Virus record (IMG/VR): IMGVR_UViG_3300040801_002079
Coordinates: 159,837-223,836 of that record
Length of the DNA stretch: 64,000 nucleotides
Strand: one strand, 5' to 3'
Source of the DNA: a virus
In this document: positions 3,287 to 52,438 of the stretch, piece by piece
Layout of the letters: each line of letters starts with the position of its first letter
Position numbering within the stretch: position 1 is the stretch's first letter
Notes under the pieces: generated by a model
The model's database searches: none
What the model was told of the DNA's origin: nothing
What the model saw: only the letters and a program-made list of their open reading frames with translations
Made by a program: the position numbers and the translations under genes

Positions 3287-3619
3287 ATGAAAACAATAAA
3301 CGAAAGAGCCGATATTATATCAAACACTTTTCAGAATAAAGCACTTAGCTTTCTTAAAGGAATGGAAGAACGAATGGGGAATGATTTGATTTATTCTCTA
3401 GCTCTTGAAGCTGGAAATGTTTTTCTCTGCGTTGCTGCACACCCATCAATGACACCAAAACGCTGGGACACAGAGCGGGAACGTATTCTGTTCTTAATTG
3501 ATGAAGAGGAATATGGAATGGATCAAGATGAACTTATTGAGGTTCTCTCTGAGCGCCTAGAAGATCATATGTATTATGTCACTGCGGGACCCGAAGAAAA
3601 TGAAACTGAGACATCTTAA
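3287..3619 (+). CDS. Hypothetical protein
   Basis: A 110-residue mainly helical, acidic protein that I cannot assign. The start at 3287 has CGAGGTT about 8 nt upstream. Its last 20 nt overlap the start region of the Acb1-like gene in another frame, implying co-translation with an anti-defence gene. Confidence 0.6.
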   Translation: MKTINERADIISNTFQNKALSFLKGMEERMGNDLIYSLALEAGNVFLCVAAHPSMTPKRWDTERERILFLIDEEEYGMDQDELIEVLSERLEDHMYYVTAGPEENETETS

Positions 3620-4193
3620 GCCCGTACCACAAACCGACTATGATCCGCGTGATCCAATTGGAACAGTGTATACATTTAGACATCCCGATGGTATGCGTGG
3701 CACCGTAACTGTATTAGAAAAAATTGAAGATGAAGCCTCAGGGGTATTTGTCGGAGTGAAGTTTTCCGAGGAAACCAATGATGCCATAATGAATTTTATT
3801 GAATCTCAGGATATCCCAAATCCTGTAACAAAAGATAAACTACATTGTACTGTTATGTACACATATAGTGATGCCCCTGATTTAATTGAAGAAAGTAGAC
3901 CCCCTCTTATCCCCGCATGGAATGCTACACCGGATAAATTTGAAATATTTGAAACACAGGATGATAATAATTGCTTGGTTTTAAGAATAAAATGTGATGA
4001 ACTAACCGAAAGGCATGAGAAAATCATAGCGGATTACGGAGTTGTTTATACGCACGAGGAATACAAGCCACATATAACATTATCATATGATTGTGGAGAT
4101 TTCGATATTTCAACGTTGGACAAAGATGCGTTACCTGATGAAATCCTTATAACAGAGGAGTATGCATCATCGATTGATCCAGACTGGGTATAG
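3600..4193 (+). CDS. acb1: Acb1-like anti-CBASS 2H phosphoesterase
   Basis: The protein contains both HxT motifs of the 2H phosphoesterase fold: HCT at residues 82-84 (KLHCTVMYT) and HIT at 158-160 (YKPHITLSYD). The surrounding pattern (GVKF..., IPNPVTKDKLH, PHITLSYD, then a C-terminal EEY...DW) matches T4 gp57B/Acb1, which cleaves the cyclic oligonucleotide signals of CBASS immunity. A roughly 45-residue N-terminal extension (GTVYTFRHPDG...) precedes the catalytic domain and is not part of T4 Acb1 as I remember it. The start is uncertain: ATG 3600 is chosen, but an in-frame ATG at 3576 also exists. A 2',5' RNA ligase-type activity is the alternative reading. Confidence 0.75.
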   Translation: MKLRHLKPVPQTDYDPRDPIGTVYTFRHPDGMRGTVTVLEKIEDEASGVFVGVKFSEETNDAIMNFIESQDIPNPVTKDKLHCTVMYTYSDAPDLIEESRPPLIPAWNATPDKFEIFETQDDNNCLVLRIKCDELTERHEKIIADYGVVYTHEEYKPHITLSYDCGDFDISTLDKDALPDEILITEEYASSIDPDWV

Positions 4194-4204
4194 TGATAAA
4201 TAAG

Positions 4205-4494
4205 TATAACATTGTACGATCCATTTAAGGATTTATTGTGGACGGCGGTTCGATTCCGCCCATTTCCACCAAAAGCATACCTAATGGGTATATTTTATGA
4301 TGGGAATGCACTGGTTTCGACATGGTAAGTTGGTAAATGAGGACAATGCGGCAACCGTGAAAGTCGTTAGGGTAAAACCAAAGAAGCAAAAAACTAAATG
4401 CAAACGATAGCATATATGATCAGGCCCTTGCCGCTTGATCGTGGGTTTAGCCAACCTTGAACCAGAACGGGTTAGGGGGGAGTAATCCCCCCGA
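4205..4494 (+). ncRNA. ssrA: Circularly permuted two-piece tmRNA (tag ANDSIYDQALAA)
   Basis: The acceptor piece comes first. Its T arm is GGCGG-TTCGATT-CCGCC (4244-4260), followed by acceptor strand CATTTCC (4261-4267), A and an encoded CCA (4269-4271). After a spacer of about 30 nt the coding piece starts with GGGAATG (4302-4308), which pairs with CATTTCC and includes the G3-U70 pair that specifies alanine. A second helix joins ATTTATTGTG (4231-4240) with CATGGTAAGT (4321-4330). The reading frame 4400-4438 encodes ANDSIYDQALAA-stop, a normal ssrA tag ending ALAA. Stems near 4453-4473 and a G6/C6 hairpin at 4475-4492 close it. tmRNA rescues stalled ribosomes and tags their products for proteolysis. 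A GATAAATA element lies at 4195-4202. Confidence 0.93.
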
Positions 4495-4515
4495 ATTTTA
4501 TCAAAAGGGACTTCT

Positions 4516-5271
4516 ATGAATCACGCAAAAAATGATGAGACTTACAACGATAACAATAATAACAATGAACAGCCTCTTTTTCCATTTTTACCTAACAGGG
4601 AACAAATAAGGTCCTTTAAAAGAACCATCCCAGTAGCGGTCTATGACTTCTACATTACTGATGAAATAAAAGAACCAGATGTGTACATGGAGTTAATTCA
4701 AACTCTTAAAAGTGCTGATCCTCAGGATACAATTTTCATCTATTTAAATACTCCGGGCGGGAGCCTCTATACTACCATTCAGATAATGTCGGCAATCACT
4801 AGCTCACAGGCAAAGGTCATAACATGCCTTGAAGGGCAGGCATGTTCTGCTGGAACATTCATTTTCTTAGCGGGAGACACTAAAATAGTTAATCCCCACT
4901 GTACGTTCATGGTTCATAATTATAGCCAAGGAGCAAGTGGTAAGGGTAACGAAATTGTATCCCATGTTAATTACATGGATCGATATTTTAAAAGACTAGC
5001 TGAAGATGTATACACTGAGTTTTTAACCAAAACTGAGTTGGAATCCGTTATTAAGGGTGATGACATGTGGATGGATTCACACGAACTGGTGAAAAGATTA
5101 GATGCCAACAACCATGACTACATCTACACGGGCCAAGATTTGGATGAAATATTAGGCAGAGACCCTGATGAGATTTCAGATGAAATGGAAGATGCTTCTA
5201 AGCCCAAACAAAGGGCAAAAAAGAAAGTAACTAAGAAAAAAGCTTCGAGGAAAAAAACCGCGTCTGATTAA
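4516..5271 (+). CDS. clpP: ClpP-like serine protease with Lys-rich tail
   Basis: The 251-residue protein has the ClpP core: oxyanion segment NTPGGS (78-83), nucleophile S111 in QACSAGTF, H134 in FMVHNY, and a candidate third residue D187 (DMWMDSHE). The first 28 residues are an Asn-rich extension. The last 25 are an H1-like basic tail with repeated K-K-x-x-K, which ordinary ClpP lacks. ClpP forms a barrel protease working with an unfoldase. Immediately downstream of the tmRNA, it could degrade tagged proteins. ClpP-type enzymes can also serve as prohead proteases, but the head genes are 40 kb away. AAAAGGGA precedes the ATG. Confidence 0.85.
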   Translation: MNHAKNDETYNDNNNNNEQPLFPFLPNREQIRSFKRTIPVAVYDFYITDEIKEPDVYMELIQTLKSADPQDTIFIYLNTPGGSLYTTIQIMSAITSSQAKVITCLEGQACSAGTFIFLAGDTKIVNPHCTFMVHNYSQGASGKGNEIVSHVNYMDRYFKRLAEDVYTEFLTKTELESVIKGDDMWMDSHELVKRLDANNHDYIYTGQDLDEILGRDPDEISDEMEDASKPKQRAKKKVTKKKASRKKTASD

Positions 5272-5309: not shown

Positions 5310-6320
5310 ATGAATTATGAGTGCATTGAAGATGTAGTCAGAGAGCATGTTGCATTTAAAAATGTGTCAGCATCTGGCTGGAACCAAGCATATTGTGAAT
5401 ATTGTGGCGATGGCGGGAGAACCAAGGGTCCCCGTGGTAATTGGCTATTTGATGGTGATATGCTATTCTTCAATTGCTATAATTGTGGAACCAAAGCAAA
5501 TTTTGATCCTCACAGGGAGATACCATTTAGTAAGCACATGCATGGTGTCTTCAAGGCTCACGGAATCCCATTAAAGTTCTGTTATGCGTTAATCCCCAAA
5601 GATGCTAATGCCGAAACTAGGGAAGTTAAGCCTCAAAAACTTAAATTTGATTCATTTGAATTACCGGATCATTTTTATAAACTATCAAGTGCAGCAATGG
5701 ATGACAAAAAAGCAATCATTGCTCGTGAACATTTAATAAACAAACGTAAAATTGATCCGGACGATTTCCCGTTTTATCTATCAAGCGGAGTTACACAATC
5801 ATCTAGCCCTAAAGATATAAGTTTGGCTAAGACATTTCAGCAAAGACTTATAATTCCATCATATGTCAATGATACATTAATTGGGTATGAGGGAATGGCC
5901 CTATATCCAAATAAAAACAAATATATAACAATTGGTTCTAATTTGGTACACGGCTATTCTAATATTTTCAGGGAAGAGGGGCATGTGCCACTGTTTGTAA
6001 CTGAAGGATTTTTTGATTCATATCATGTAAATGGAGTCGCATTGTGTACAAACTCCTTAAGTAATAAGCATATAGAGCTTCTGGAAAAGACATCTAGGCC
6101 CAAGGTTGTTATACCGGATAGGAAGAATACACATAACGCTTTAGCTGAAGAGGCACTTAATCTTGGATGGGGCGTGTCGCTACCCGAAATAAAGCCATAT
6201 AAGGATATTTCAGAGGCAATTGAGCACTATGGTGTATTTTTCGTATTAAATTCGGTTATGAAATCCATAAAATACGGGGATAGTGGAAAAATTTATTTAA
6301 AAATATATAATGTTGCATAA
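5310..6320 (+). CDS. 61: DNA primase (T4 gp61-like)
   Basis: A 336-residue primase. A zinc ribbon with C29, C32, C56 and C59 lies at the N-terminus and would read template DNA. A TOPRIM core follows, with the conserved acidic segment FVTEGFFDSYH (about 229-239) and the metal-binding VVIPD (266-270). The length matches T4 gp61, which makes RNA primers for lagging-strand synthesis with the gp41 helicase, also encoded in this window (36437-37834). It sits apart from the other replication genes, directly after clpP, with its own sigma70-like promoter. Confidence 0.85.
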   Translation: MNYECIEDVVREHVAFKNVSASGWNQAYCEYCGDGGRTKGPRGNWLFDGDMLFFNCYNCGTKANFDPHREIPFSKHMHGVFKAHGIPLKFCYALIPKDANAETREVKPQKLKFDSFELPDHFYKLSSAAMDDKKAIIAREHLINKRKIDPDDFPFYLSSGVTQSSSPKDISLAKTFQQRLIIPSYVNDTLIGYEGMALYPNKNKYITIGSNLVHGYSNIFREEGHVPLFVTEGFFDSYHVNGVALCTNSLSNKHIELLEKTSRPKVVIPDRKNTHNALAEEALNLGWGVSLPEIKPYKDISEAIEHYGVFFVLNSVMKSIKYGDSGKIYLKIYNVA

Positions 6321-7121: not shown

Positions 7122-8711
7122 ATGAAATTAGAATTTAGACAGGGCTTAGTCCAAATACAATCTACACCACCATTTATAACTACATCGGGCGGCAGTGTAA
7201 GTCTAAATTCGTCTGTAACCGATAATATTGTAACATTTGCACACGGTGAAGATAATTACCTTTTTATAGAATCTAATGATCTTCCCGGTGCATGGACGGG
7301 TCCATTCGGGGCTGGAACAACGTGGCTCTATTGGAATCTGGATATAGAGACTGGAGTAAGAACCTTCGGAAGTACCACTCTTGACCCAACTGGATATGGA
7401 GATGATATGCCATCCAGTCCAGTAATGGGTGAAATGTTCTTTTCAACATTAGAAAATAAAATGAAGGAATGGAATGGTTATAAATGGGTAACCGTTCTGC
7501 GTGTACTTGCAGGGGAAATAACTGGGGGAACATTAACGCCATATAGCGAAGGATCACAAATCTCAGATGATTTTCAAGCATATGCAGGATATTTGCTTTT
7601 TGATGAAAATGGAAATCCATTTAAAGAATCTGATCCATTTAATCGTGGTCATTTTGTACATACTGAGACAAGGCTTAAAGCACAAAATACACCACTCAAT
7701 CAATACGAGCAAAGAAATACCGAATATTCATATACATCGGATACATCAATACCTGAGGGTTATTGTGTAGCACTGATAGAAGACAAAACTCTAACCGTTG
7801 CATCATATAGAAAGCCTGAAAGACCATGTATTGGAATATCATTAATGGACTTATATGCTGGTGATATGGGCAGGTATGTGACGGAGGGGGTGCTGACCTT
7901 TGAGGGCTGGAATTTTGATTCCGTACCTAATACCCCTGTTTGGGTTGGACCAAATGGAGAAGTTACCACCACTGTACCAACCGAAACTTCAATTCAGAGG
8001 TTAGGGTTTGTGGTTTCAAAAAACAGTATACTATTGGATATAAGAGAGCCGGTTTTACTAGACCCATCTTATAAGGACTGCTTTGTTCCATCACCAACTC
8101 CAACTCCAACTCCAACTGTTACACCAACCATTACTGCAACCGTTACACCCACGGCGACAGTTACACCAACTGTTACAGCTACGGCATCTGTTACACCAAC
8201 TGTTACCCCAACTACTACAGTTGATCCAACAGTAACACCAACTGTTACAGCCGCTATTACACCAACACCAACAGTAACACCAACAGTTACCCCAACTATG
8301 ACGGTAACGCCTGAAGTTAGCCCATCACCAACAACAACTCCTGCTCCATCTGCTGAGGCCACACCAACCCCAACTGTTACTTCAGGATTAACTCCAACTG
8401 TTACTCCAACTTCTACAGTTACACCAACAATTACTTCAACTGCGGAAGTAACACCAACCCCAACAGCTACGACTGGTCTAACACCAACAGTTACACCAGA
8501 GGTTACACCAACGAATACGGTAACACCTCCCGTTACACCAACAGTTACTCCATCTTTATCTGTTGGGGCATCCCCCACACCTACTCCAACGGTTACACCA
8601 ACGAACACGGCAACAACTACACCTACCCCAACAGTTACGCCGACAATGACAGTAACCCCAACTCCTTCCCCATTAAGCGGATTGAAGACACTCTTTATTG
8701 ACTGGACATAA
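7122..8711 (+). CDS. Fibre-like virion protein with long Pro/Thr repeat tail
   Basis: The 529-residue protein has a beta-rich N-terminal part (about 1-320). It includes MGEMFFSTLENKMKEWNGYKW, the (label)-(W/F)-x-G-x-W pattern of fibre proteins, and a distal segment of the type seen before the ends of tail proteins (SIQRLGFVVSKNSILLDI, about 288-305). From about residue 323 to 515 it is an almost uninterrupted PTPTVTPT-type low-complexity tract, then a short hydrophobic end. The tract is probably an extended rod or linker and is a candidate for O-glycosylation. The same tract type occurs in the adjacent protease and in four fibre genes on the other strand. Confidence 0.6.
   Translation: MKLEFRQGLVQIQSTPPFITTSGGSVSLNSSVTDNIVTFAHGEDNYLFIESNDLPGAWTGPFGAGTTWLYWNLDIETGVRTFGSTTLDPTGYGDDMPSSPVMGEMFFSTLENKMKEWNGYKWVTVLRVLAGEITGGTLTPYSEGSQISDDFQAYAGYLLFDENGNPFKESDPFNRGHFVHTETRLKAQNTPLNQYEQRNTEYSYTSDTSIPEGYCVALIEDKTLTVASYRKPERPCIGISLMDLYAGDMGRYVTEGVLTFEGWNFDSVPNTPVWVGPNGEVTTTVPTETSIQRLGFVVSKNSILLDIREPVLLDPSYKDCFVPSPTPTPTPTVTPTITATVTPTATVTPTVTATASVTPTVTPTTTVDPTVTPTVTAAITPTPTVTPTVTPTMTVTPEVSPSPTTTPAPSAEATPTPTVTSGLTPTVTPTSTVTPTITSTAEVTPTPTATTGLTPTVTPEVTPTNTVTPPVTPTVTPSLSVGASPTPTPTVTPTNTATTTPTPTVTPTMTVTPTPSPLSGLKTLFIDWT
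8088..8676 (+). repeat. Low-complexity Pro/Thr codon repeat
   Basis: Degenerate repeats of CCAACAGTTACACC-like units encode the PTPTVTPT tract. Related tracts lie on the minus strand at about 13795-13945, 15175-15350, 16680-16830 and 18060-18425. Such shared DNA could allow recombination between fibre genes. Antisense reading gives long spurious Val/Gly frames. Confidence 0.8.
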
Positions 8712-8714
8712 GAC

Positions 8715-10097
8715 ATGGAAATTACTAGCAATATTAAAAACAAAATAGAAGAAATTTATAAAGATTCTAATTATAATGTTAGAACCGTTAGCTTAGGACG
8801 CAAAAAGGTTGGAGATGAAAAAACGGATGAAATTGCCATTGTCATTCGAGTAGAAAAGAAAAAACCTTTAAGTGAATTGAGCGCAGACGAAATTGTTCCA
8901 AAAACAATAACTATAGATGGACAAGATTTTAAGACTGATGTTATCGAAGACCCTAGTGAAATTACAGCAATAGCCTGCTTTACTTCAACTGATCCTGACG
9001 TTTTAAAGTTGCAGGGTGACCCAGCGCTTCTTACTCCTCTTAAGGGTGGACAAGAACTTACACAATTCCCAACAGGGTGGACAGACTTTGGTGGCGGAAG
9101 CTATGGATTCACTGTGGGAACATTGGGATTCATCGGAGTAGATGACATTGATGGAAAAATTGTCGGTGTGACCAATAATCATGTAGTAATTGGGAACGGA
9201 GATATAAATGGAGACAGGGATATACCGACAGAGGTTGCATCCCCATATAATATTATTGAACCTATAGAATGGGTGGTTGATAGCTCATCGTATGCTCCCG
9301 GAGCATTACTACGTGATGAAAGTGCCCCCGGAACATTTGTAGATGGCGCACCAAATATCAAGAGATATATTCCATTTGATGTAGATGGAACAAACTATGT
9401 GGATGTTGCGCTTCTGATTATGGACCCAACGAAGGTTGACAACACATCATATCAAATACACCAACCAACAGGGGAGACAGCATATACGGATTATTTGCCA
9501 TTTGCAAGCACCGCAGAGATCGATAGTTTACTAGCTACTCCCAGAACAATATACAGTACAGGAAGAACTACGGGACCAAAGGGGTGGGGAGTAAGTGCTT
9601 CATGTACATTAGAAATAACAGCATTAGCTGAAACCATTAGTGTTAGTGGGTTATCCGATACAAACTTAACCTTTTCAGATGTTGTGCGATTTGAGTTTAC
9701 TGATGGCAGTAATTATCCAATCGATAGTGGAGATTCTGGATCAGCCGTTGTTGCAGATTTTGATGGAACTAGAAAAATAGTAGGGTTAGCATTTGCAGGA
9801 AGCCTAACAGCAGGATTCTTCTGTAGAATTGATCGAATAGCTGATGCTATAAAAATACGCCAGTGGGATGAGCACTATGTTTACGATGATACTGTTCCAG
9901 CAGGGGCCACACTTAAAGCTGCACCCATTGAGGATTCATCAGCGGATAGTGTAACTGTTACTCCTGAATGTAAATATCTATTCCAAGCTGGAACATCAAT
10001 GACAGATACATATGATGATCTATTAGCTATAACTCCACTAGCGTGTTCAGTTACGCCAACTGTTACACCCGAAGTAACACCAACCCCATCTGGTTAG
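8715..10097 (+). CDS. Trypsin-like serine protease with Pro/Thr tail
   Basis: The 460-residue protein has a full chymotrypsin-type triad: H156 in GVTNNHVV, D230 in YVDVALL and S341 in DSGDSGSAV. The N-terminal segment (VEKKKPLSEL, then TPLKGGQ and GTLGFIG) resembles a family of bacterial S1-like proteases that I recognise only by pattern. It ends [15 protein letters not shown], the same Pro/Thr unit as the fibre gene 3 nt upstream, suggesting it is a virion or fibre-associated enzyme. Possible roles are processing of fibres or digestion of host surface proteins. Complete trypsin-like proteases are unusual in T4-like phages. No signal peptide is seen. Confidence 0.8.
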   Translation: MEITSNIKNKIEEIYKDSNYNVRTVSLGRKKVGDEKTDEIAIVIRVEKKKPLSELSADEIVPKTITIDGQDFKTDVIEDPSEITAIACFTSTDPDVLKLQGDPALLTPLKGGQELTQFPTGWTDFGGGSYGFTVGTLGFIGVDDIDGKIVGVTNNHVVIGNGDINGDRDIPTEVASPYNIIEPIEWVVDSSSYAPGALLRDESAPGTFVDGAPNIKRYIPFDVDGTNYVDVALLIMDPTKVDNTSYQIHQPTGETAYTDYLPFASTAEIDSLLATPRTIYSTGRTTGPKGWGVSASCTLEITALAETISVSGLSDTNLTFSDVVRFEFTDGSNYPIDSGDSGSAVVADFDGTRKIVGLAFAGSLTAGFFCRIDRIADAIKIRQWDEHYVYDDTVPAGATLKAAPIEDSSADSVTVTPECKYLFQAGTSMTDTYDDLLAITPLACSVTPTVTPEVTPTPSG

Positions 10098-12246: not shown

Positions 12247-14547
12247 TTATGCTGGCTTAAAGAAGAAATATACCGTGGCCCGTGTTAGGGTTGCATCGTA
12301 TGTTGTCCAAACCGCAGGGAATGAAAGATTTGATGATCCGTAACTAGTCACTATACTCTGATTTATATAGTTAGTGTTCTCAGCTTCATTATAATAAACC
12401 CTATAAAATGTTCGCAAATAATTGACCACATATCCATCAGGAACATTTATATCAAATCCAGTTACATCTCCGTCATTGCCATCAATATCACTCGTTATAG
12501 ATAAAGAGAACTTTTCACCGTCAACGAAGGTCGTGGTCCTACTTCCAAACGAACTGGTTCCTCCGGTTTGTCTAATATCTGCACTTAACGTAAATGATCT
12601 TTCTGGAGTCGGCGTTGGGGAAGGGCCATCTGGTGGTGGGGTTCCATCTATGTTCCAACAGAATTGATTTAAATAATTACATATGTTTTTGCCTTCCATC
12701 CATCTAGTAGCAAAATCACCTGAAAATGAATCATTATGTATTATCTGAACCGCGCCATCTGGTAACAACGCCGCACTATCGAATGTTACATCATTCATAC
12801 TGAAGGTTCTAGTTCCCAAATTACAATTTCCGCTTCCATCAGAAACTCCTATATTTGTATACCCCATTGGTTGAGTTGAAGACTCACCAATCATTGCTAA
12901 TAACTGATTTCCTGTAATTCCCACGGGTTCAAATATAAAGAGCCATTTTCTTCCGGGTCCACCAATTTCTTGTAGATATAACCCAGCTTTACATATAGCA
13001 TATTCCGATGTAGTTCTAGACATAGAACCAAAATTATCATTATAATTATTATATCCAACTACTCTTGTCGCGTTAGAGAAAATTTGCCCAGCCGGAACGG
13101 TGTCGCCTTCGGCTGGTGTTATAACGGAGCAACTTCCTGTAACAGGAGCATCATCTACTCCATCATGATCCCAGCTTGAGTACCAATATGTCAATGTTCC
13201 GGGCGATGAAGGGAATGGCCCCTCAGTCCCCGGATTTGTTAAGTTTGTTCCACCCGCAGCACATCCACCAACATATCCAACCGAACTAATATCAGATGAT
13301 CCGGGTATCCACCATTGTCGGGTATTGCCAACACTATCAGTGAGAATAACTCTACCGTGGAATCTTACGGTCATGCTATAATTATTTTCAGTATTAAATT
13401 CCGCGCTATCAAATTTCAAACGAATATATGGTATTTCTCCGGGGGATATATTTGTACGCAATGATCCAGTTCCGTCTCCACCGAAATAACTCTTTAAGAC
13501 TGTGCTGAGGGGATATGCCGACCCCTGATAGTACGTGCCTCCACTTCCAACCTCAACTAAGCCAGAGGGATCACTTGTGGGAGATTGAATAGTGGCGAAT
13601 ACATTTTGGAAATCAACAGTGTAAGGTGGGACCCCACCACTAATGTTTTGTAATGAAAAATATGTACTCTGATCATATGCACTTTTTGCAACATTACCCT
13701 CAGTATCGATGTGTGATGTGTTCGTTCCGCCTCCGGGTCCGGGAGTTCCGGGATCACATGGTGCGGGAGATACATAGAGTCGCGTATCGACTCCTAATGG
13801 CTCTACTGGCTCGGGAGTATCGGTTGGAGTCGGTGATACCGGAGGTGAGGGGGGAGGCGTTCCTGCGGGGCTGCTAGTTGGTGTGACTGTAATTCCCACT
13901 GGAGGGGTTGGGGTTGGAGTAACCTCTGGTAAATCTGGGGGAGTAACCTGTTGCCCCAGATTGTTATTGCCGCGTATTCCTATAATTAAATAGTTTACGT
14001 AAGATTCAATAGTAGTGGTATCTCCTAACACCTTATAGTGCATGGTTACTCTTGCTTCAGAGTCAGTACCACAAGTCATTCCAGAAAATCCGGAATTATA
14101 TGCTGCGGGTGCTACTGACCATATACATTCAGAGTATTCAAACTCTCGGCCCGTTACAGGGCTAATGGGTTTAGGCAATTGCTGACCATGATATACTGTT
14201 CCCCAGTTTGCTGCAACATCATCGTAACTTGATATTGGAATCCAATATGTTCCATCCCAAAAATATAGCACACCAGATGTTGAGTTATACCAAAACTGTC
14301 CATGGGTTGGGTTAACAAGCAAATTCTCATGACTTTGCGATGTGTCGGGTGTTCCGGGAACAGATGGGTTTTCAGGGCAAGCAAAATTTTCTAGCAAGTG
14401 TAATAGATTTTCATTAAGATATTCACCATATTCTAGATTTATTCTTCCAAACATAGCAACATCAACAGAGGTTCTATTAACATCACCCTGTTTAACTTCT
14501 ATTGGACTAGCACTAACTTGTGTAAAATCTATTTTATATGTTGACAT
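12247..14547 (-). CDS. Tail-fibre/adhesin paralogue 1
   Basis: The 766-residue protein starts with a domain shared by all four tandem paralogues: an (A/L)FGR-x-x-x-YGE segment, NENLLHLLENFACP, then GQFWYNSTSG-x-LY-x-WDGT-x-W and a C-rich stretch (about 1-200). A Pro/Thr/Ser linker follows (about 205-250). Next is an Ig/SprB-like domain with GGVPPYTVDF (about 305-430), shared with paralogues 2 and 3, and then unique C-terminal beta domains. The N-terminal domain probably attaches to the virion and the variable end contacts the receptor. It is the longest of the four and follows a GATAAATA element at about 14570. Confidence 0.7.
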   Translation of the reverse strand: MSTYKIDFTQVSASPIEVKQGDVNRTSVDVAMFGRINLEYGEYLNENLLHLLENFACPENPSVPGTPDTSQSHENLLVNPTHGQFWYNSTSGVLYFWDGTYWIPISSYDDVAANWGTVYHGQQLPKPISPVTGREFEYSECIWSVAPAAYNSGFSGMTCGTDSEARVTMHYKVLGDTTTIESYVNYLIIGIRGNNNLGQQVTPPDLPEVTPTPTPPVGITVTPTSSPAGTPPPSPPVSPTPTDTPEPVEPLGVDTRLYVSPAPCDPGTPGPGGGTNTSHIDTEGNVAKSAYDQSTYFSLQNISGGVPPYTVDFQNVFATIQSPTSDPSGLVEVGSGGTYYQGSAYPLSTVLKSYFGGDGTGSLRTNISPGEIPYIRLKFDSAEFNTENNYSMTVRFHGRVILTDSVGNTRQWWIPGSSDISSVGYVGGCAAGGTNLTNPGTEGPFPSSPGTLTYWYSSWDHDGVDDAPVTGSCSVITPAEGDTVPAGQIFSNATRVVGYNNYNDNFGSMSRTTSEYAICKAGLYLQEIGGPGRKWLFIFEPVGITGNQLLAMIGESSTQPMGYTNIGVSDGSGNCNLGTRTFSMNDVTFDSAALLPDGAVQIIHNDSFSGDFATRWMEGKNICNYLNQFCWNIDGTPPPDGPSPTPTPERSFTLSADIRQTGGTSSFGSRTTTFVDGEKFSLSITSDIDGNDGDVTGFDINVPDGYVVNYLRTFYRVYYNEAENTNYINQSIVTSYGSSNLSFPAVWTTYDATLTRATVYFFFKPA

Positions 14548-14577
14548 CTATTATTCCCAATTATCTGTATTTATCCA

Positions 14578-15948
14578 TTAAAGACAATCCGGACATTCAT
14601 CACAATGTTCATAATGTCCATAGCTAATAGGAAGCTCCCAGTCAGTCGGCGTTCGATTATTTGAACCCCCAACAGGTGTTGGCTCTCTTGGTATATACCA
14701 ATTAACACTATTGCCTTCAGCATCTATTAGAATAACCCACCCTGACAATGTGTAGTTTATTCGATATGTGTAAGTTGGATCGAAATTATCAGGGTTATCA
14801 AACTTAGGAGTAAACTTAACATATGGTAGAGATGTTGTATTTAGATTTGTGCGCAACCACGATGTATCCGACCCCACTCCTCCATAATATCTTATATCCA
14901 TTGTCATTGGGGGCAGCGCATATTGTCGAGTCTGACTTTCCCCTGTTAAACTATACCACCCTGTTATCGGGCTAACGACTATCCATCTAAAGATTACTTG
15001 ATACGGTCCATTGCCTCCTGATAAATCCTGTAAGGACACATAATATGGTTGCTCAACTTGATTTATTTGTATTGATGGGCCACATGTGTTGTATAGTCTT
15101 ATTCCGGTTCCTCCGGGTCCGGGCGCTCCGGGGTCTCCGGGAGATGGTGCAGTATATAATCTGGTATTAATGCCCAGAGGTTGAGGAGACGGAGTTGGTG
15201 TAACTTCGGCTGTAACTGTTGGGGTTACTGTGCTTGTTGGAGTTACAGTTGGTGTAAAATCAGGGGTGCTCGTCACGGTAGGAGTAACTGTTGGGGTTAA
15301 TCCATATGTTGGGGTTGGGGTTGGAGTTATACCAGATGGAAGCGGTGGTGGAACTAAGCTTCCTTTGTTTTGATTCCCCTTTATTCCTATGATTAAGTAA
15401 TTCGCTGTTCCGGGAAGTAGATCGGGTGGGGTGCCGTATTCCATTGTAACAATGGCATTGTTGTCTGTTGCGCAATTTACAACACTAAACCCCGTATCAT
15501 ATGTCGCAGGAGCCACACACCATATACATTCGTTATATTCAAACTCTTGACCACTTGTTGGGCTTACAGGTTTAGGTATCTGCTCTCCATGAAATATTGA
15601 TCCCCAATTGGCAGCTACATCATCCATACTGCTAATTGGGGTCCACGCAGATTCTGTATAAACATATAATGTGCCTTTTGTTGTGTTATACCAGAATTGT
15701 CCATTTATTGAATTATCAAATATATTATCAAATGATAAATTGGTGTCTGGGTTTCCGGGATTTAAAGGGTCTTCGGGGCAGGCAAAGTTTTCCAATAGAT
15801 GAACAAGGTTTTCCTGAAGAGCGTCACCGTATTTTAATCGAATATATCCAAATAATGATATATCCGTAGATGTAGTATCAACAGATTGCTCATTAACCTT
15901 TATTGGAGCTAGGTTGATGTTTGTATATTGAACGGTATAAGTGGTCAT
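14578..15948 (-). CDS. Tail-fibre/adhesin paralogue 2
   Basis: The 456-residue protein repeats the common N-terminal domain (YGDALQENLVHLLENFACPEDP, cut here to the diagnostic part), then a Pro/Thr linker (about 205-255) and the Ig/SprB-like domain with LSGGNGPYQV. It ends soon after in CDECPDC, a Cys-rich tail that may bind metal or form disulfides. GGTGAGGA precedes the start at 15948. Confidence 0.7.
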   Translation of the reverse strand: MTTYTVQYTNINLAPIKVNEQSVDTTSTDISLFGYIRLKYGDALQENLVHLLENFACPEDPLNPGNPDTNLSFDNIFDNSINGQFWYNTTKGTLYVYTESAWTPISSMDDVAANWGSIFHGEQIPKPVSPTSGQEFEYNECIWCVAPATYDTGFSVVNCATDNNAIVTMEYGTPPDLLPGTANYLIIGIKGNQNKGSLVPPPLPSGITPTPTPTYGLTPTVTPTVTSTPDFTPTVTPTSTVTPTVTAEVTPTPSPQPLGINTRLYTAPSPGDPGAPGPGGTGIRLYNTCGPSIQINQVEQPYYVSLQDLSGGNGPYQVIFRWIVVSPITGWYSLTGESQTRQYALPPMTMDIRYYGGVGSDTSWLRTNLNTTSLPYVKFTPKFDNPDNFDPTYTYRINYTLSGWVILIDAEGNSVNWYIPREPTPVGGSNNRTPTDWELPISYGHYEHCDECPDCL

Positions 15949-15966
15949 TCGATCCTCACCTTATAC

Positions 15967-17517
15967 CTAGTCGTAACCAAGTATTCTTAACTCTGTCAGA
16001 CATGAACCCGGACATATACTGCAATCATAATAGTGATTCCAAGTGCTATTAAATTTATATGTCGATCCGGGGTTAACTCGTTGATTCGATCCTCCGGTTT
16101 GAGTTGCATCCTCGGTTAACCACCATGTAATAGATGTACCAACCGAATCTGTCGCTCTAATATATCCCCATACTTCAGTCCAGAATCCAAGATAGCTTGC
16201 TTTATCTAAATCGTACCAAAGATCATCATTACCTGTATAGGTGTCAACCCTAGTATAACATGCCTCTCCGGGATCAACATTAATTCTAATTTCATTAACC
16301 CCGCTTGATTGTCGCGTTCCGCCACCATAATAAACTCTCAGTTCAGGCTCGACTGGAAGTGGATATGGATTAGGATCGGTAGGCCACATCATGTATCCAG
16401 TAGTATTATCAGTTCCAGCAGAATAGATATTACTCATATCAACAGTGTAAGGTGGAACGCCGCCAGATAACCCAACTAGATATACACTAACTGTTCTCTC
16501 AAGAGCATAAGAAAAATATAAATGTCTAAACGCTGCAACCGTTGCTGGGTCCTGATCGGGCCACACAAGATCGCCACACGAGTTTTTATGGTAAGTTGGT
16601 GAGCCACTACTAACGTCATTTGTGTATCCCGGTGAAGGGTACACATATAATCTAGCATCTCTGCCAAACGGCTCAACACTATTGGGTGGGGTTGATGCGG
16701 GTGTGCTCGTTGGCGTTGGCGCAAGAGGTGACGGTGATGGTGTAACAGAATTTGTGGGGGTAACTGTTGGGGTTGCGCCAAATGTTGGTGTAGGGGTAGC
16801 AGTCGGTGCTGGTGTTTGGGTCGGGGTTATAACTGGGGGATTAATGTTATTAATTCCTCTGTTAACATTTCCACGTATGCCAATAATCATGTAATTGGCA
16901 ATACCGTTTATCAGCGTTGAGTCTCCCGTAACCCTGTATTGCATTGTGACCCGCGCATCATCATCATCCGTTGAGCATACCATGAAGTCAATTTCATCAT
17001 CATAATGATATGGACCCACCATCCAAGAACATTCTTCATATGTAAAGGTTGCACCCGTGCTTGACACTGGAAGGGGAATCTGTTCCCCGTGTGCAATGGT
17101 TCCATAGTTTGCGGCTATTTCAGAAAATAAACTGAGGGGTACCCAAGTGCCAACATCATTAATCATTTTATAAACAAAAAGATGCCCTTCGGTTGATGAT
17201 GTAAGACCACTGCTTGCAGGAAATCCGGAATTGTACCAAAGCTGTCCTTCAATTGCATTTTCTAATGTGTGTCGAATAGCTCCCTCTGTTTCAAGGGTTT
17301 CAGATTCAGAGCTAATAAAGGGGTTACCCGCATTCTGAGGGTCTTCGGGACAAGCAAAGTTTTCCAATAAATGAAGAAGGTTTTCATTCATTAATTCTCC
17401 ATATTCCAATCTCTCCCTGCCAAATAAAGCAATAGCCAAGTCTTGGTTTATGGTTTTTTCATCCACATTAGTGGATGGTTTACTTTTATCTGTTCTGTTA
17501 ATTACATAAGTAACCAT
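15967..17517 (-). CDS. Tail-fibre/adhesin paralogue 3
   Basis: The 516-residue protein has the same plan as paralogue 2: common N-terminal domain with an insertion near residues 65-95, Pro/Thr linker (about 235-285), then the Ig/SprB-like domain (LSGGVPPYTVDM) and a Cys-containing end (CSICPGSC). Its ATG overlaps the stop of the small gene upstream (TAATG), so translation is coupled. Confidence 0.7.
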   Translation of the reverse strand: MVTYVINRTDKSKPSTNVDEKTINQDLAIALFGRERLEYGELMNENLLHLLENFACPEDPQNAGNPFISSESETLETEGAIRHTLENAIEGQLWYNSGFPASSGLTSSTEGHLFVYKMINDVGTWVPLSLFSEIAANYGTIAHGEQIPLPVSSTGATFTYEECSWMVGPYHYDDEIDFMVCSTDDDDARVTMQYRVTGDSTLINGIANYMIIGIRGNVNRGINNINPPVITPTQTPAPTATPTPTFGATPTVTPTNSVTPSPSPLAPTPTSTPASTPPNSVEPFGRDARLYVYPSPGYTNDVSSGSPTYHKNSCGDLVWPDQDPATVAAFRHLYFSYALERTVSVYLVGLSGGVPPYTVDMSNIYSAGTDNTTGYMMWPTDPNPYPLPVEPELRVYYGGGTRQSSGVNEIRINVDPGEACYTRVDTYTGNDDLWYDLDKASYLGFWTEVWGYIRATDSVGTSITWWLTEDATQTGGSNQRVNPGSTYKFNSTWNHYYDCSICPGSCLTELRILGYD

Positions 17518-17690
17518 TATACTTCCTCATAACTGTCAATCTTTGAATGTATCATGTCGGATTTAAATTCGCCGTCTGATATCTCAAAGACTTCAATTCC
17601 CGAATCTGCTGAATTTTGCGCCGATACCCGCTTTTGTGCAGTTCCTATAATAACTTGTTCTCCATCGATTTCTTTAACCAATAAAAACAT
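17517..17690 (-). CDS. Small coupled protein between fibre genes
   Basis: An open frame of 57 codons starting [13 protein letters not shown] and ending DSYEEV. Both ends are TAATG overlaps: its ATG overlaps the stop of paralogue 4, and its stop overlaps the ATG of paralogue 3. The tight coupling on both sides supports a real gene. Acidic, with no recognised family. Confidence 0.6.
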   Translation of the reverse strand: MFLLVKEIDGEQVIIGTAQKRVSAQNSADSGIEVFEISDGEFKSDMIHSKIDSYEEV

Positions 17691-19057
17691 TATAGTATTT
17701 CCCCGCTCCCCTCGACTGTTAATGCAAGCCTAATATCATCAGAGTCGCCTTTTGGTCCAGTTATTGTTACAACTATAACCTGAGTCCATTCACTTCCTGA
17801 TGTTGGTGGACCTAAACACCACGATTTAGTTGTGCCCAGATTACCCGATGTTGGCCCGGATGCTACAGGATATGGAAATTCTTGGGTGGCGGTAAATGTA
17901 TAATCTGATCCATCTTCTCCATCTCTAAATCCATTAACTACCCACTCACCATAAACTCCACATGATGCTGCAACGACAGTTCCGTTGGAGTTTATGCTTA
18001 TACATGCGGTTGAAGCCGTCTTAAGACAAGCATAAAAGCCGCCCTTAACATCGCCAGTTGGATCAACTGATAGAGATGGTGTAACCTCTGGTGTAACAGT
18101 TGGATCAGGCGTATTTGATGGTGTAACTGGAGGCGTTGGCAATGGAGTCTCCGTGGGGTCAGGCGTACTTGACTGCGTTGGTCCGGGAGTTCCTGCGGGC
18201 GTATTTGATGGAGTAACTGGGGGCGTTGGCTCTGGAGTATTTGTTGGTGTAGCAGTAACTCCGGGTGCGGGTGTATTTGATGGCGTAACAGTATTGGTCG
18301 GTGTAACTGTTGGTGTATTTGTTGGGGTTGGCTGTGGAGAGCTTCCGGGAGTCACCGTTGGGGTTGCGGTAACAACCGGTGTTCCAGTTTGAGTTGGCGT
18401 TGGTGTAGGAGTTGCCGCCTCTGGTAAACTTGGAACAGGGCCGATTGCTCCCAGATTTGCATTATCCCTTATGCCAACAATCTGATAATTAACTAACCCA
18501 GTAGTTAAATCGGAACCAACGGGACGATACTGCATATTAACTGTTGCCTGATCATCAGTAGAACAAACCATGTAGTTAATATCATCAGGGTAATTAAACG
18601 GGGAAACTATCCACGAACATTCTTCATATTGAAATACATATCCTGTTGTGGGACATACGGGCTGTGGCAATTGCTCACCGTGTGCAATCACTCCATAGTT
18701 GCCAGCAACATCACACCCTGTACCAAGTGCCGTCCATTCTGTTCCATTATATCGATAAGGTCTTTTATCCGTTGTGTTATACCAAATCTGTCCCTCAATA
18801 GGGTTTTCAAGAAGTGCGCCAAATGCATTGGCTAAATCTGGATTTCCGGGATTACCAGCATCTTCGGGACAGGCAAAGTGTTCTAATAAATGTAAAACAT
18901 TTTCATTAAATATTTCACCATAATCTCGTTTTGTTTTACCAACGAACGCGATGTCGGCTTTATTTGTAATCAATTCACCCTTGGAAACAAAGATTGCATC
19001 TTTGCTGGCATCGGTAAAGTTTATTGTATAAAGATTTTGTGAGCAGTTAGTTGCCAT
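17690..19057 (-). CDS. Tail-fibre/adhesin paralogue 4
   Basis: The 455-residue protein has the common N-terminal domain ([37 protein letters not shown]) and the longest Pro/Thr linker of the four (about 215-335). It lacks the Ig/SprB-like domain and ends in a short, different beta domain (about 345-455). It is first in the minus-strand fibre operon. GGGAT and an AATAAATA element lie upstream. Confidence 0.7.
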
Positions 19058-35981: not shown

Positions 35982-36158
35982 CTATTTATGCTCTGGTTTA
36001 GAAACTAAATTAAATTTTATTTCCGGACTAACTGAAATATTTTGAGGACTTTCACCAAATTGATGCTGGCACCAAGTATCAAAATCAAAGCTATTATTTA
36101 ACACATTGTTTTGAATATATTTTTTATATTCTTCGATTATTTCTATATAATTATTCAT
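35982..36158 (-). CDS. Hypothetical small protein
   Basis: A 58-residue protein starting MNNYIEIIEEYKK, not recognised. The ATG at 36158 lies 1 nt after the preceding stop (36160); longer frames run into that gene. Confidence 0.5.
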   Translation of the reverse strand: MNNYIEIIEEYKKYIQNNVLNNSFDFDTWCQHQFGESPQNISVSPEIKFNLVSKPEHK

Positions 36159-36159
36159 G

Positions 36160-36444
36160 TCATTCACCGCCATCATTTGATGCATCCGGTGTTTCACTGT
36201 CCACCTCTGTGGATTGAACATTTTCTGCTGGACCAACAACTTTCATAACGTCAGCCATGATTGAAGCTCGTGCCGCCTGTGCTGCAACAGCTAATGTATC
36301 TCGCTTAAATGTTGCCTCTGTTAATTCATAATTAACACGATCAAAAAATCGGATGGCTTGACGCAACTCATATGGTAGTGCATCCACTGGCACAGTTCTA
36401 CCATCCTCTAAATCAATTTTTTCAGTCTTTGCCATTTCACTCAT
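36160..36444 (-). CDS. Hypothetical small helical protein
   Basis: The 94-residue protein contains two helices (LPYELRQAIRFFDRVNYELTE and an Ala-rich one) and a polar tail. The start may be 36444 or the Met at 36432. It overlaps the end of the helicase gene by 8 nt, so it is co-translated with it. Confidence 0.5.
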   Translation of the reverse strand: MSEMAKTEKIDLEDGRTVPVDALPYELRQAIRFFDRVNYELTEATFKRDTLAVAAQAARASIMADVMKVVGPAENVQSTEVDSETPDASNDGGE

Positions 36445-47339: not shown

Positions 47340-47415
47340 TGGTGGTGGAGGGCAGAATCGAACTGCCGTCTTCGGCCTTATGAGGACCGCGCTTTACCAA
47401 TTAAGCTACTCCACC
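47340..47415 (-). tRNA. tRNA with CAT anticodon (Met or Ile2)
   Basis: The cloverleaf has acceptor GGTGGAG/CTCCACC, anticodon loop CTCATAA, T arm GGCAG-TTCGATT-CTGCC and an encoded CCA. The G1-C72 pair argues against an initiator tRNA. Elongator Met and lysidine-modified Ile2 cannot be separated by eye. Confidence 0.9.
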
Positions 47416-47417
47416 TT

Positions 47418-47594
47418 TTAAGAAACTTCTTTCAGAAGATCAATTCGGTGACTATGCTCTTGACAGAATTCACACAATGATTGCTCTTCAATTTCTGGAC
47501 TTGGTTCTGGTTGTTTTTTCTGTGGCGACAGGAGACGGATGCCCCTGAACTGGAGACGGATACGCTTTTTTAATTTTGACCTTCTAGGTAACAT
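47418..47594 (-). CDS. Small basic protein with Cys/His end
   Basis: An open frame of 58 codons beginning MLPRRSKLKK, with a C-terminal CEFCQEHSH that could bind zinc. Its ATG overlaps the last codons of the gene upstream by 11 nt. It fills the gap before tRNA-Met. No strong ribosome site beyond coupling. Confidence 0.45.
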   Translation of the reverse strand: MLPRRSKLKKRIRLQFRGIRLLSPQKKQPEPSPEIEEQSLCEFCQEHSHRIDLLKEVS

Positions 47595-47871
47595 TGGTGT
47601 TCAGCACCAACTTTTTAACTACGTTATGATTTTTCATGTATTCCTCGTTTAAATACTCTTCACACTGTTCTAAATCTTTTCTTATAACAAGAGGAGTTCC
47701 CCTGCGATCTGTTATGCAAAATCCATCAGATACTTCATATATGATGTTGTTTAATGTTTTGTAGGTCAGCTTAGCCGTTTCATTTGTTGAATCGACAACC
47801 TTCAAAAATATTAAAAACTTCTGGGATTTGCTACTTTCATTTTCTATTATATCATAGTCAACAATGTCCAT
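47584..47871 (-). CDS. Hypothetical protein
   Basis: A 95-residue protein, not recognised, with an acidic N-terminus and a beta-rich middle. AATAAATA (47877-47884) lies about 6 nt before the ATG without a Shine-Dalgarno sequence, the leaderless-type arrangement seen elsewhere here. Confidence 0.5.
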   Translation of the reverse strand: MDIVDYDIIENESSKSQKFLIFLKVVDSTNETAKLTYKTLNNIIYEVSDGFCITDRRGTPLVIRKDLEQCEEYLNEEYMKNHNVVKKLVLNTNVT

Positions 47872-47910
47872 GCAACTATTTATTAGTTATGTAAAAGTAG
47901 TAAAAATGAC

Positions 47911-48008
47911 TGGCGGTGGGTGTGGGATTTGAACCCACGAGCCACCCTTTTAAAGGTGACTACTTCCTTAGCAGGGAAGCGCGATCAACCAGACTCTGCC
48001 AACCCACC
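47911..48008 (-). tRNA. tRNA-Ser (GCT)
   Basis: A 98-nt class II tRNA with a long variable arm, anticodon loop CTGCTAA between CTTCC and GGAAG, acceptor GGTGGGT/ACCCACC and an encoded CCA after discriminator G. Confidence 0.93.
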
Positions 48009-48149
48009 TTAATTAAATACATTCTTGCATTTACATTTTACACTGTGACAAACCTGACATGTATAAATCCACGCGGGTCCAGCATAAAATTTAACTGTAT
48101 CGATAACCATAGCTAAAGCGGCTACCTCTGTTGGACAAATATGAATCAT
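48009..48149 (-). CDS. Small Cys-rich protein
   Basis: An open frame of 46 codons: MIHICPTEVAALAMVIDTV at the start and a C-terminal TCQVCHSVKCKCK cluster. GGAG lies about 10 nt before the ATG, which overlaps the stop of a tiny frame upstream (ATGA). It resembles, from memory, tiny CP-x-E proteins of marine phages. It ends flush with tRNA-Ser. Confidence 0.55.
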   Translation of the reverse strand: MIHICPTEVAALAMVIDTVKFYAGPAWIYTCQVCHSVKCKCKNVFN

Positions 48150-48232
48150 TTACGAAGTCTCCATTTAATACCATAGGAGCACCCGAGCGAATCGCCCAAG
48201 CGCATAATCATTCTTTTCAAGAACTCTAACAT
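48146..48232 (-). CDS. Very small basic peptide
   Basis: A 28-codon frame (MLEFLKRMIMRLGDSLG...) starting 3 nt after the upstream stop and overlapping the next start by ATGA. Only coupling supports it. Confidence 0.3.
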   Translation of the reverse strand: MLEFLKRMIMRLGDSLGCSYGIKWRLRK

Positions 48233-48235
48233 TTA

Positions 48236-48556
48236 TCATTCTCTATATAAATTATTCTTGGTGGCGTAATCATCATACTTCTGTAAAAACTGAAGTAAAT
48301 CTCTTACATCATGTGGTGATATCATCGTATCACTGAACACATTACTATATGGATGCAGCCTGAAAATATACTTTATGCCATTCCATAAACGATTAAAAAA
48401 AGGACGGTCAGCGTTTAGCATCTGATGAATATAGAATTCGGGACAAGCAATATCACTCTCGTCTTCCCAATATTCAAACCTTATGACATGTTCTATATCA
48501 TAACAATCGCAATCGATTGTCAAGCGTCTTACGTCCTTTTCATATGCGTTTTTCAT
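48236..48556 (-). CDS. Conserved phage hypothetical protein
   Basis: A 106-residue soluble protein (IDCDCYDIEHVIRFEYWED, then KYIFRLHPYSN) similar, as I recall, to unassigned small proteins in phages of aquatic bacteria. Likely a beta-strand-rich N-terminus. First of a small operon ending at tRNA-Ser. Confidence 0.5.
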   Translation of the reverse strand: MKNAYEKDVRRLTIDCDCYDIEHVIRFEYWEDESDIACPEFYIHQMLNADRPFFNRLWNGIKYIFRLHPYSNVFSDTMISPHDVRDLLQFLQKYDDYATKNNLYRE

Positions 48557-48603
48557 ATACTACCTCAATTCAAAATCCAAAGAATGTAAAACTGTTTCAA
48601 AAG

Positions 48604-48680
48604 TGGTCGGACCAGCAAGATTCGAACTTGCGACCTCTCGGACCCAAACCGAGTGCTCTACCAGACTGAGCTATGATCCG
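48604..48680 (-). tRNA. tRNA-Pro (TGG)
   Basis: Anticodon loop TTTGGGT between CTCGG and CCGAG, acceptor CGGATCA/TGGTCCG, T arm GCAAG-TTCGAAT-CTTGC and an encoded CCA. Confidence 0.93.
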
Positions 48681-48740
48681 TCATTTTCAAAATATTATAA
48701 CACACTAAATATGTATAAACAACCATAAGGAACAATATTT

Positions 48741-49160
48741 ATGAATAAAGATAATGTAATTGATTTTGATTTGCAGTGCATTTATCATCCTGCCCACGAA
48801 AACAGATTTATGTTAAGGTTTGTTGCAGAAAGTAACGCCTTAAAAAATTTATCAAAGCAAGCCATTAGCTATTCATATGACCTAGTTGAAAAAAATATTA
48901 AGGTTATATTTGAAATAGCTGGCAGCGCAAATGTGGTGGAAGAAGAATTATTAGATTTCTGTTCCGGTTCAAAAAAGTTAGCGGGACATGGAAATTTTAT
49001 TGTCATTGAATTTTTATCCTCAACGGGCCTTACTCCGGAAAAGAGTATACACTGCATTGTAGACAACGTAATATCATGTAAAATGAAAGGAGATTATGCT
49101 GGAAGTGGTACATGTAAAGCAGAACTAATCTGCAATATTAGCAACTTTAAATTTTCTTAA
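48741..49160 (+). CDS. Hypothetical protein
   Basis: A 139-residue beta-rich protein without known motifs, on the opposite strand from its neighbours. AAGGAAC lies 8 nt before the ATG. The 3' end overlaps the methyltransferase gene by 14 nt (convergent). Confidence 0.55.
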   Translation: MNKDNVIDFDLQCIYHPAHENRFMLRFVAESNALKNLSKQAISYSYDLVEKNIKVIFEIAGSANVVEEELLDFCSGSKKLAGHGNFIVIEFLSSTGLTPEKSIHCIVDNVISCKMKGDYAGSGTCKAELICNISNFKFS

Positions 49161-49821: not shown

Positions 49822-49844
49822 ACATTATCCCCTATTAGTATTCA

Positions 49845-49852
49845 TATTTATA
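49845..49852 (-). promoter_or_regulatory. T4-type late promoter element TATAAATA
   Basis: Exact match 23 nt before the GTG start at 49821. Confidence 0.6.
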
Positions 49853-49856
49853 TGGT

Positions 49857-49890
49857 AATAAAAAGGGGGTTCAGAAGAACCCCCTCTATT
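49857..49890 (-). terminator. Rho-independent terminator
   Basis: Minus strand GGGGGTTC-ttct-GAACCCCC followed by TTTTTA, ending the transcript of the 432-residue protein. Confidence 0.88.
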
Positions 49891-49910
49891 TTTAACAGTT
49901 TGTAACTGTC

Positions 49911-51250: not shown

Positions 51251-52438
51251 TTAATTTAGATCAGCTAATAAATCATCTTTTCCTAATGTAAAGCCAGATT
51301 CAGTCCATTTAGATTTAAGAGAATTTAATATTCGCCCAAGTTCTGGTCCCGGCGATATGCCTAATCTCTTTAAATCTTCACCATTGACTGGAAAAGTAGG
51401 GGCATCCCAATTTTGAAACTTATTCGCAGCCCCATTTTTATTCTTATACACAAGCAGAGCGTGAACAAGATTTTTCTTTATTCTCAGCATGATATGCATT
51501 TTCTTAGCTAGAGTTAAATTGATGTCCTTATCACGATGCTGTAATATGGTTTTCATCATTTCATATTCTGGGTTACTGAATTTCCACCGTGACCTTACAT
51601 CATTCAACTCATCGACTGAACTTAATAACGATGCCATTAATAGGTTTGGGTCCTTTGTATTATTGTAAACTCGACTGAACTCCTTGAGGTTTGGATTGGG
51701 TAATCCAATATTATTCATAACCCCAGACTCTTTCATCTTGGACAATATTAAAGGGGCATGATTGCCTGAAAGGATTTTTGCCATTTCCATCCATATCCTT
51801 TCACCGCTTATTCTTTTCAAGCCTTCTGCATTTTTTGCAATCTTGGATAGGGTGTCCTTATCAAAGTTAGGAGACTCGGTTCGACCCTGAAATCTAAAAT
51901 ATCTAAGAATTCTTAAAAAATCTTCCTGCATTCTGGAATCAGCATCCCCAACAAATCTCGCTGTACCAGATTTCAAATCCTCATGACCCCCATGATAATC
52001 ATATAGATTACCATCAAAGTCCATGCTCATAGCGTTAAAAGTGAGGTCCCTTCTTTCCGCATCCTGTTCCCAATCTTTGGTATACTCAACTTCAGCATGT
52101 CTGCCATCAGTTTCAACATCTATGCGAAGCGTTGTTATTTCGTAATCCTCGCCATCAATGTGAGCAACCACTGTGCCGTGCTGTAGCCCCGTTTCAATCA
52201 CTCTTATATCATTGGCCTTAAGTAACTCCATACTCTCGTTAGGAGTCGCATCTGTGGCTAAATCAATGTCCTTAGGCTCCTTATCCATAAGTATGTCACG
52301 CACAGCGCCACCAACAATTCGAAGTTCGTGTCCGTTTTGCTTATAAAGCTGATTAAGGCGTAACAAATTCTTATCCAACAATCTGTTAAGAGTTTGCTTC
52401 TTATTTGTTACTTGCTCTAAGAGAATACTAAGTTTCAT
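51251..52438 (-). CDS. cca: CCA-adding tRNA nucleotidyltransferase
   Basis: The 395-residue class II enzyme has GGAVRD (43-48), the catalytic DID (D57, D59), an RRDLTFNAM segment and the poly(A)/CCA head-domain pattern FLRILRYFRFQGR. It adds or repairs the 3' CCA of tRNAs. It sits directly next to tRNA-Thr(GGT) within the tRNA-rich region, and at least one tRNA here (Thr TGT) lacks an encoded CCA. TATAAATA ends 5 nt before the ATG without a Shine-Dalgarno sequence. Confidence 0.85.
   Translation of the reverse strand: MKLSILLEQVTNKKQTLNRLLDKNLLRLNQLYKQNGHELRIVGGAVRDILMDKEPKDIDLATDATPNESMELLKANDIRVIETGLQHGTVVAHIDGEDYEITTLRIDVETDGRHAEVEYTKDWEQDAERRDLTFNAMSMDFDGNLYDYHGGHEDLKSGTARFVGDADSRMQEDFLRILRYFRFQGRTESPNFDKDTLSKIAKNAEGLKRISGERIWMEMAKILSGNHAPLILSKMKESGVMNNIGLPNPNLKEFSRVYNNTKDPNLLMASLLSSVDELNDVRSRWKFSNPEYEMMKTILQHRDKDINLTLAKKMHIMLRIKKNLVHALLVYKNKNGAANKFQNWDAPTFPVNGEDLKRLGISPGPELGRILNSLKSKWTESGFTLGKDDLLADLN

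Follow-up and report, generated by a model that had tools for sequence, protein, structure and literature searches.

The window, the whole stretch of 64,000 nucleotides that was analysed, comprises bases 159837-223836 of a 316,801-base (316.8 kb) IMG/VR virus record (G000) and carries capsid, terminase, clamp loader, UvsX and helicase genes of phage type. Near its start lies a permuted, or two-piece, tmRNA gene followed on the same strand by a gene for a ClpP-like protease. The original prediction joined the two in one unit at 4205-5271, which proved real but slightly too narrow because a late-promoter-like box lies just upstream. The features discussed below are:

3576..4193, plus strand: 2H-phosphoesterase of the Acb1 (anti-CBASS) family, 5' neighbour of the tmRNA (Pfam PF23474 1e-33, PHROG 755)
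4195..4202, plus strand: T4-type late-promoter box GATAAATA, one mismatch to TATAAATA (motif match)
4210..4271, plus strand: tmRNA acceptor (tRNA-like 3') piece (RF04321, RF01850, ARAGORN, pairing check)
4272..4301, plus strand: spacer, predicted to be excised from the precursor (30 nt from CCA to G1)
4302..4492, plus strand: tmRNA coding piece (Rfam, ARAGORN, covariation)
4400..4438, plus strand: tag reading frame ANDSIYDQALAA plus TGA (ARAGORN)
4475..4492, plus strand: GC-rich terminal hairpin GGGGGGAGTAATCCCCCC then GAATTTTAT, terminator-like end of the tmRNA gene (Rfam; relatives)
4516..5271, plus strand: clpP, S14-type ClpP-like protease, 251 aa (Pfam PF00574, PHROG 1827)
5310..6320, plus strand: DNA primase-like gene, constant neighbour 3' of clpP (PHROG 47)
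51251..52438, minus strand: phage tRNA nucleotidyltransferase, CCA-adding type (PHROG 2244 3e-64)

The tmRNA occupies 4210-4492 on the plus strand. A scan with the permuted-tmRNA models of Rfam, proposed together with the original prediction, gave 123.3 bits over the whole of RF04321 (E 1e-23, cut-off 47) and 98.6 bits with beta_tmRNA (RF01850, cut-off 84), and ARAGORN called a permuted tmRNA at 4179-4529 with the same tag, ANDSIYDQALAA, that had been predicted. The acceptor piece precedes the coding piece and P2 pairing joins both. The acceptor piece contains strands of the inter-piece helices, the T arm GGCGG(TTCGATT)CCGCC, the strand CATTTCC (4261-4267), A73 and an encoded CCA at 4269-4271. 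The coding piece consists of the acceptor 5' strand GGGAATG (4302-4308), the D-arm-like TGGTTTCGAC, P2 strands at 4334-4339 and 4343-4348, the tag frame and the 3' hairpin. The acceptor stem, the CCA and the P2-type helix were all described correctly in the original prediction: GGGAATG and CATTTCC pair at 7/7 positions, G3-U70 included, and two inter-piece helices pair perfectly, the outer one being CATTGT 4210-4215 with ACAATG 4343-4348 and the second CATTTA 4222-4227 with TAAATG 4334-4339. By eye, a candidate pseudoknot can be placed 5' of the resume codon at about 4349-4380. The tag itself has a resume codon, a short frame and a hydrophobic-AA end followed by a stop. The terminal hairpin is followed by a T-rich run, the two together spanning 4475-4500, and most relatives have an equivalent hairpin plus T-run.

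The spacer ranges from 12 to about 580 nt in relatives, several of which have no encoded CCA or have a T loop of 6 nt. The phage CCA-adding enzyme could maintain the CCA end of the tmRNA. The record also holds more than 35 tRNAs, with a large array at 47340-63946 and in L011. Apart from the tmRNA, the tRNAs and one group I intron (RF00028, 62 bits, minus strand, L005:11850-12320), no Rfam families were found in the record.

Relatives were gathered via ClpP and capsid. Searching viral contigs with one ClpP protein, or phage DNA with the G000 tmRNA, gave no match; the relatives were found by an alignment-based ClpP search. The nearest cultured relative is the Xanthomonas phage XacN1 (AP018399; capsid 64%, terminase 51%, ClpP 43%), and the Stenotrophomonas phages RAS14 and CM1 reach 59% in capsid and 49% in terminase. 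The clade is one of XacN1-like, T4-related jumbo phages. When 50 related IMG/VR records were searched with RF04321, 20 were over the cut-off. So was XacN1, where the tmRNA is absent from the annotated features of its stretch of the record. RAS14, CM1 and G002, which are large or complete genomes, have clpP and neither a two-piece nor a one-piece tmRNA over cut-off, so the tmRNA is dispensable. The tags diverge widely across relatives (ANDAFYGEMRLAA, ANDESYTEDFEEEFALAA, ASNDAFYGETALAA and others), and nearly all begin with Ala, have Asn among the first residues and finish with a hydrophobic residue followed by AA, mostly LAA.

Pairing was compared in 18 non-redundant phage tmRNAs including that of G000; those of G012, G024 and G036, in which placement of the outer helix is uncertain, were omitted. 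The outer inter-piece helix, whose strands in a few sequences were positioned at the homologous site partly because they were complementary, has 108/108 standard pairs and 33 double-change cells. Corresponding values are 90/90 and 22 for the T stem and 125/126 and 17 for the acceptor. The best of 2000 shuffled runs reached 86, 71 and 113 pairs for the outer helix, T stem and acceptor respectively, so the pairing in all three helices is far beyond chance. G3-U70 is invariant (18/18), and G1-C72 and G2-C71 likewise never vary. Three helices that covary while these pairs stay invariant indicate a maintained function and not a relic, and the combination reads as the signature of an RNA kept alanylatable and able to join its pieces. 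Cofolding of the two G000 pieces compared with shuffles gave z about -1.9, a weak thermodynamic test for which covariation is the better substitute.

The box GATAAATA stands about 8-15 nt 5' of the tRNA-like piece in G000. Of 21 non-redundant phage loci, 10 have a perfect TATAAATA upstream of the tmRNA and 14 have it with at most one mismatch, in most cases at a constant spacing to the T stem; among random 60-mers the corresponding shares are 0.8% and 7.1%. The window contains TATAAATA 11 times, of which 9 are just 5' of an ORF, and a gp55-like late sigma factor gene is present at 252628-253107 of the record (PHROG 234, 3e-24). The G000 tmRNA is apparently switched on late in infection. Most relatives have a hairpin resembling a terminator between tmRNA and clpP, and often another late box as well. 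Because only 23 bases separate the hairpin from the start of clpP in G000, transcription from the tmRNA promoter may continue into this gene.

The position of the tmRNA next to a ClpP-like gene, noted originally in this one sequence, turned out to be a conserved and not an accidental neighbourhood. In 14 of the 19 non-redundant records that have both genes, these share a strand and are no more than 0.6 kb apart, with the tmRNA upstream of clpP in 13 and downstream in one (G012). Distances in the other five are 0.9 kb (G033), 2.8 kb (G024), 12 kb (G036), 49 kb (XacN1) and 86 kb (G013). A tree of clpP and primase divides into two clades (bootstrap 100 at the deepest split), and since both hold adjacent members the adjacency is probably ancestral. 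Downstream, clpP directly precedes the primase gene in 22/22 non-redundant loci. Upstream, the tmRNA is kept in 13-14 of the 22 loci, whereas the best-kept protein family, that of the Acb1-like genes, is found within 1.5 kb of clpP in 9; DHFR-like genes also recur there. As no upstream protein gene is kept as often, the tmRNA-clpP arrangement is a real and conserved one. Outside the clade, ARAGORN found one plausible tmRNA (L088:11534-11904, tag ANDNFAPSDYALAA, about 3 kb from clpP) and made one unconvincing call among other ClpP-bearing viral contigs (L042-L106), and the idea of a link beyond the clade was abandoned.

The clpP product matches Pfam CLP_protease (2e-21) and PHROG 1827 (4e-59), and its AlphaFold core, with pLDDT about 90, gives TM values of 0.69-0.80 to the target when compared with solved ClpP structures. 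The Ser/His pair described in the original prediction belongs to a full triad, Ser111/His134/Asp183, and Ser-His-Asp is invariant in 22/22 aligned ClpPs, the relatives being only 29-45% identical to G000. The Lys-rich tail, which had been called odd, exists but is a feature of the whole clade. Compared with cellular ClpP from E. coli (1TYF/1YG6) and Thermus (6HWM), the phage protein has the same fold and triad but is only about 20% identical, has a disordered basic tail and does not conserve the docking pocket. The pocket was compared by sequence alignment to E. coli ClpP, with 1TYF verified as reference. We take L48, F82, M92 and L114 to be the residues of E. coli ClpP that form the pocket for the ClpX/ClpA loops. 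M92 is replaced by E or D in 22/22 and L114 by N or H in 20/22 ClpPs of the clade, while in most of them F82 is polar and L48 is Q, N or H. Judging from this alignment, polar or acidic residues have taken the place of the hydrophobic ClpX-docking pocket throughout the clade, and it looks unlikely that the phage protease uses the usual ClpX partner.

Neither SmpB (PF01668; control genomes positive) nor a ClpX/ClpA-type unfoldase (PF07724) was found over cut-off in G000 and 22 relatives (23 records, several incomplete), so SmpB and an unfoldase would be needed from the host. The locus probably encodes a functional, late-expressed two-piece ribosome-rescue RNA that uses host SmpB and AlaRS, beside a clpP whose partner is non-canonical or lacking. 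Gene anatomy, covariation, late-promoter context and gene linkage can be read from the compared sequences themselves; for transcription, processing, charging, rescue and the fate of tagged chains we infer the following course. RNA polymerase with the phage gp55-like late sigma factor would start just 5' of 4210. Enzymes of tRNA processing would then cut the spacer 4272-4301 out of the precursor, leaving an acceptor piece and a coding piece that stay joined through the P2 helices. Host AlaRS would read G3-U70 and charge the tmRNA, which host EF-Tu and SmpB would bring to ribosomes that have stalled on an mRNA that is broken or lacks a stop codon. Addition of the tag would follow, with release of the ribosome, and the tagged chain would go mainly to host ClpXP/ClpAP via its LAA end. 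The adjoining clpP would be the second late gene of a conserved neighbourhood, probably working with a non-canonical partner or alone. Most simply, the tmRNA would be served by SmpB and ClpXP of the host, and the phage ClpP would have a different partner or substrate.

The original prediction went further and saw a trans-translation and disposal module. The structurally complete trans-translation RNA and the conserved clpP neighbourhood agree with this, but the disposal half is weakened by the lack of SmpB and unfoldase matches in the 23 records, the polar pocket and the separability of the genes. We consider it unlikely that the phage ClpP, placed on a host unfoldase, is a dedicated destroyer of tmRNA-tagged proteins, and the purposes that would go with it, amino acid recycling or clearance of truncated proteins, are likewise improbable. 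Adjacency and shared orientation kept in most relatives, late-promoter boxes before both genes in several, the intact triad in a ClpP fold and the LAA-type end of most tags would fit such a role, as would the tmRNA of G012 on the opposite side of clpP. A host unfoldase is a possible partner. However, the pocket for the ClpX loop is polar or acidic at F82, M92 and L114, no phage unfoldase exceeds the cut-off, both genes are kept unlinked in XacN1, G013 and G036, and RAS14/CM1 and G002 have clpP without tmRNA. It seems quite unlikely that tagging feeds the phage ClpP in a late quality-control unit that bypasses host ClpXP, the docking surface of this ClpP having been remodelled to suit a partner that is unusual or encoded by the phage. 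There is somewhat less than an even chance that a single event in the clade's ancestor placed the tmRNA beside clpP and that it has been inherited there since, the two genes having unrelated functions. The constant clpP-primase pair, the recurrence of Acb1-like and DHFR-like genes, the drifting apart in three lineages and the usual hairpin and frequent separate late box between the two genes all suit this explanation. It accounts less well for a tmRNA kept close upstream of clpP more often than any protein family, and retained at ClpP identities that have fallen so low. Passive inheritance is compatible with late ribosome rescue because it concerns the gene link only.

The link would be fortuitous if the clpP product were a capsid-maturation protease. 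PHROG head-maturation families match it too (1.5e-28), clpP is apparently expressed late in the clade, and the ORFs tested in the structural region, only some of those present, included no gp21-like prohead protease. On the other hand, families of ATP-dependent proteases match best by far (4e-59), and clpP stands beside primase with the capsid genes about 40 kb off on the other strand; there is thus little likelihood of a capsid role. As for the tmRNA itself, phages acquire ssrA fragments via imprecise excision (PMC9004378), and the gene is absent from many relatives, as would be expected of a captured host relic without function. Covariation already contradicts this explanation, and the invariant G3-U70, the late-promoter boxes at the tmRNA loci, the 20 positive records and the low similarity to bacterial genes make it highly improbable. 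The best similarity of the G000 tmRNA to the bacterial and other phage tmRNAs compared is 78% over 94 nt, which speaks against recent capture from a host.

Phage tmRNAs are known from 402 of 18,146 phages, with 53 two-piece gene structures, mostly aquatic (PMC9004378), and huge phages with tmRNA and SmpB have been described (PMC7162821); RF04321 is a merged model of permuted tmRNA (PMC11915505). Since two-piece tmRNAs in phages are already known, the tmRNA alone is not new. No published description of a phage tmRNA-clpP pair was found in the part of the literature covered, and the pairing appears unreported. The new points are this conserved pairing, the late-promoter context and the altered ClpP pocket. 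Compared with bacterial permuted tmRNA of the beta type (RF01850), the gene in G000 has the same order, G3-U70 acceptor, T arm, spacer, P2, AND...ALAA tag and terminal hairpin, but it is phage-borne in a record without smpB, with a late-promoter box, a longer tag, low sequence identity and clpP as neighbour. The Methylophilales phage Melnitz is also a lytic T4-related phage with a complete permuted tmRNA, in that case of alpha type with an early promoter and a glutamine riboswitch (PMC9004378). In contrast, the G000 tmRNA is beta-like, has a late-promoter box and clpP beside it, and no riboswitch matched in Rfam. XacN1 shares the permuted tmRNA (tag ANANTFDYALAA) and the clpP-primase order, but its tmRNA lies about 49 kb from clpP, in a section that the record contains twice, and has two CTA tRNAs and a GOLLD RNA as neighbours. 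Phage tmRNAs have been listed for years and their use only guessed at. A covarying, late-promoted RNA adjoining a protease, together with natural variants in which one gene is missing or separated, makes it a testable question why a phage should need ribosome rescue of its own in late infection, and whether ClpP takes part.

The type of tmRNA was originally thought to point to the host group. This does not hold because XacN1 infects Xanthomonas, which is outside the alpha, beta and cyano lineages with two-piece tmRNA, and Melnitz is a second case of mismatch between tmRNA and host (PMC9004378). From a permuted tmRNA one cannot tell which host a phage infects.

Homing endonuclease genes have struck the tmRNA locus repeatedly (G009, G033 and G002). 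In G009 (L036:7080-7852) an HNH-type endonuclease ORF (PHROG 3322, 1e-18) lies inside a spacer of about 580 nt, between an acceptor piece at about 7080-7142 of L036 and a coding piece from 7724, and the acceptor GGGGATG/CATCTCC and the late box are intact. In G033 (L243:9106-9891) a homing endonuclease (PHROG 314) is located between tmRNA and clpP. At the place of the tmRNA, G002 (L239:6950-8358) has a related endonuclease gene along with a terminal hairpin like that of a tmRNA, suggesting that the tmRNA was lost through the endonuclease. Such genes may be well tolerated in the spacer of a two-piece tmRNA because this segment would be removed from the product.

A tRNA with a CTA (amber) anticodon was found at 140922-140999 of the G000 record (L009) and at 36047-36205 of XacN1, both with an odd C31-A39 mismatch. 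Exact matches to the CTA anticodon arm were limited to these two among 18 records tested, so a link between an amber-suppressor tRNA and the tmRNA is not general; in G000, TAG serves as a normal stop codon, ending 62 of about 380 ORFs. The GOLLD RNA (RF02032, 227 bits) is situated at L024:2840-3253, about 1 kb 3' of the XacN1 tmRNA. Elsewhere in the window, an ORF at 7122-8711 has a long PTxTPT low-complexity tail and is followed by a protease-like ORF at 8715-10097 (PHROG 20754). Four paralogous large ORFs on the minus strand at 12247-19057 have a common N-terminal domain (PHROG 15511) and are possibly tail-fibre-like.
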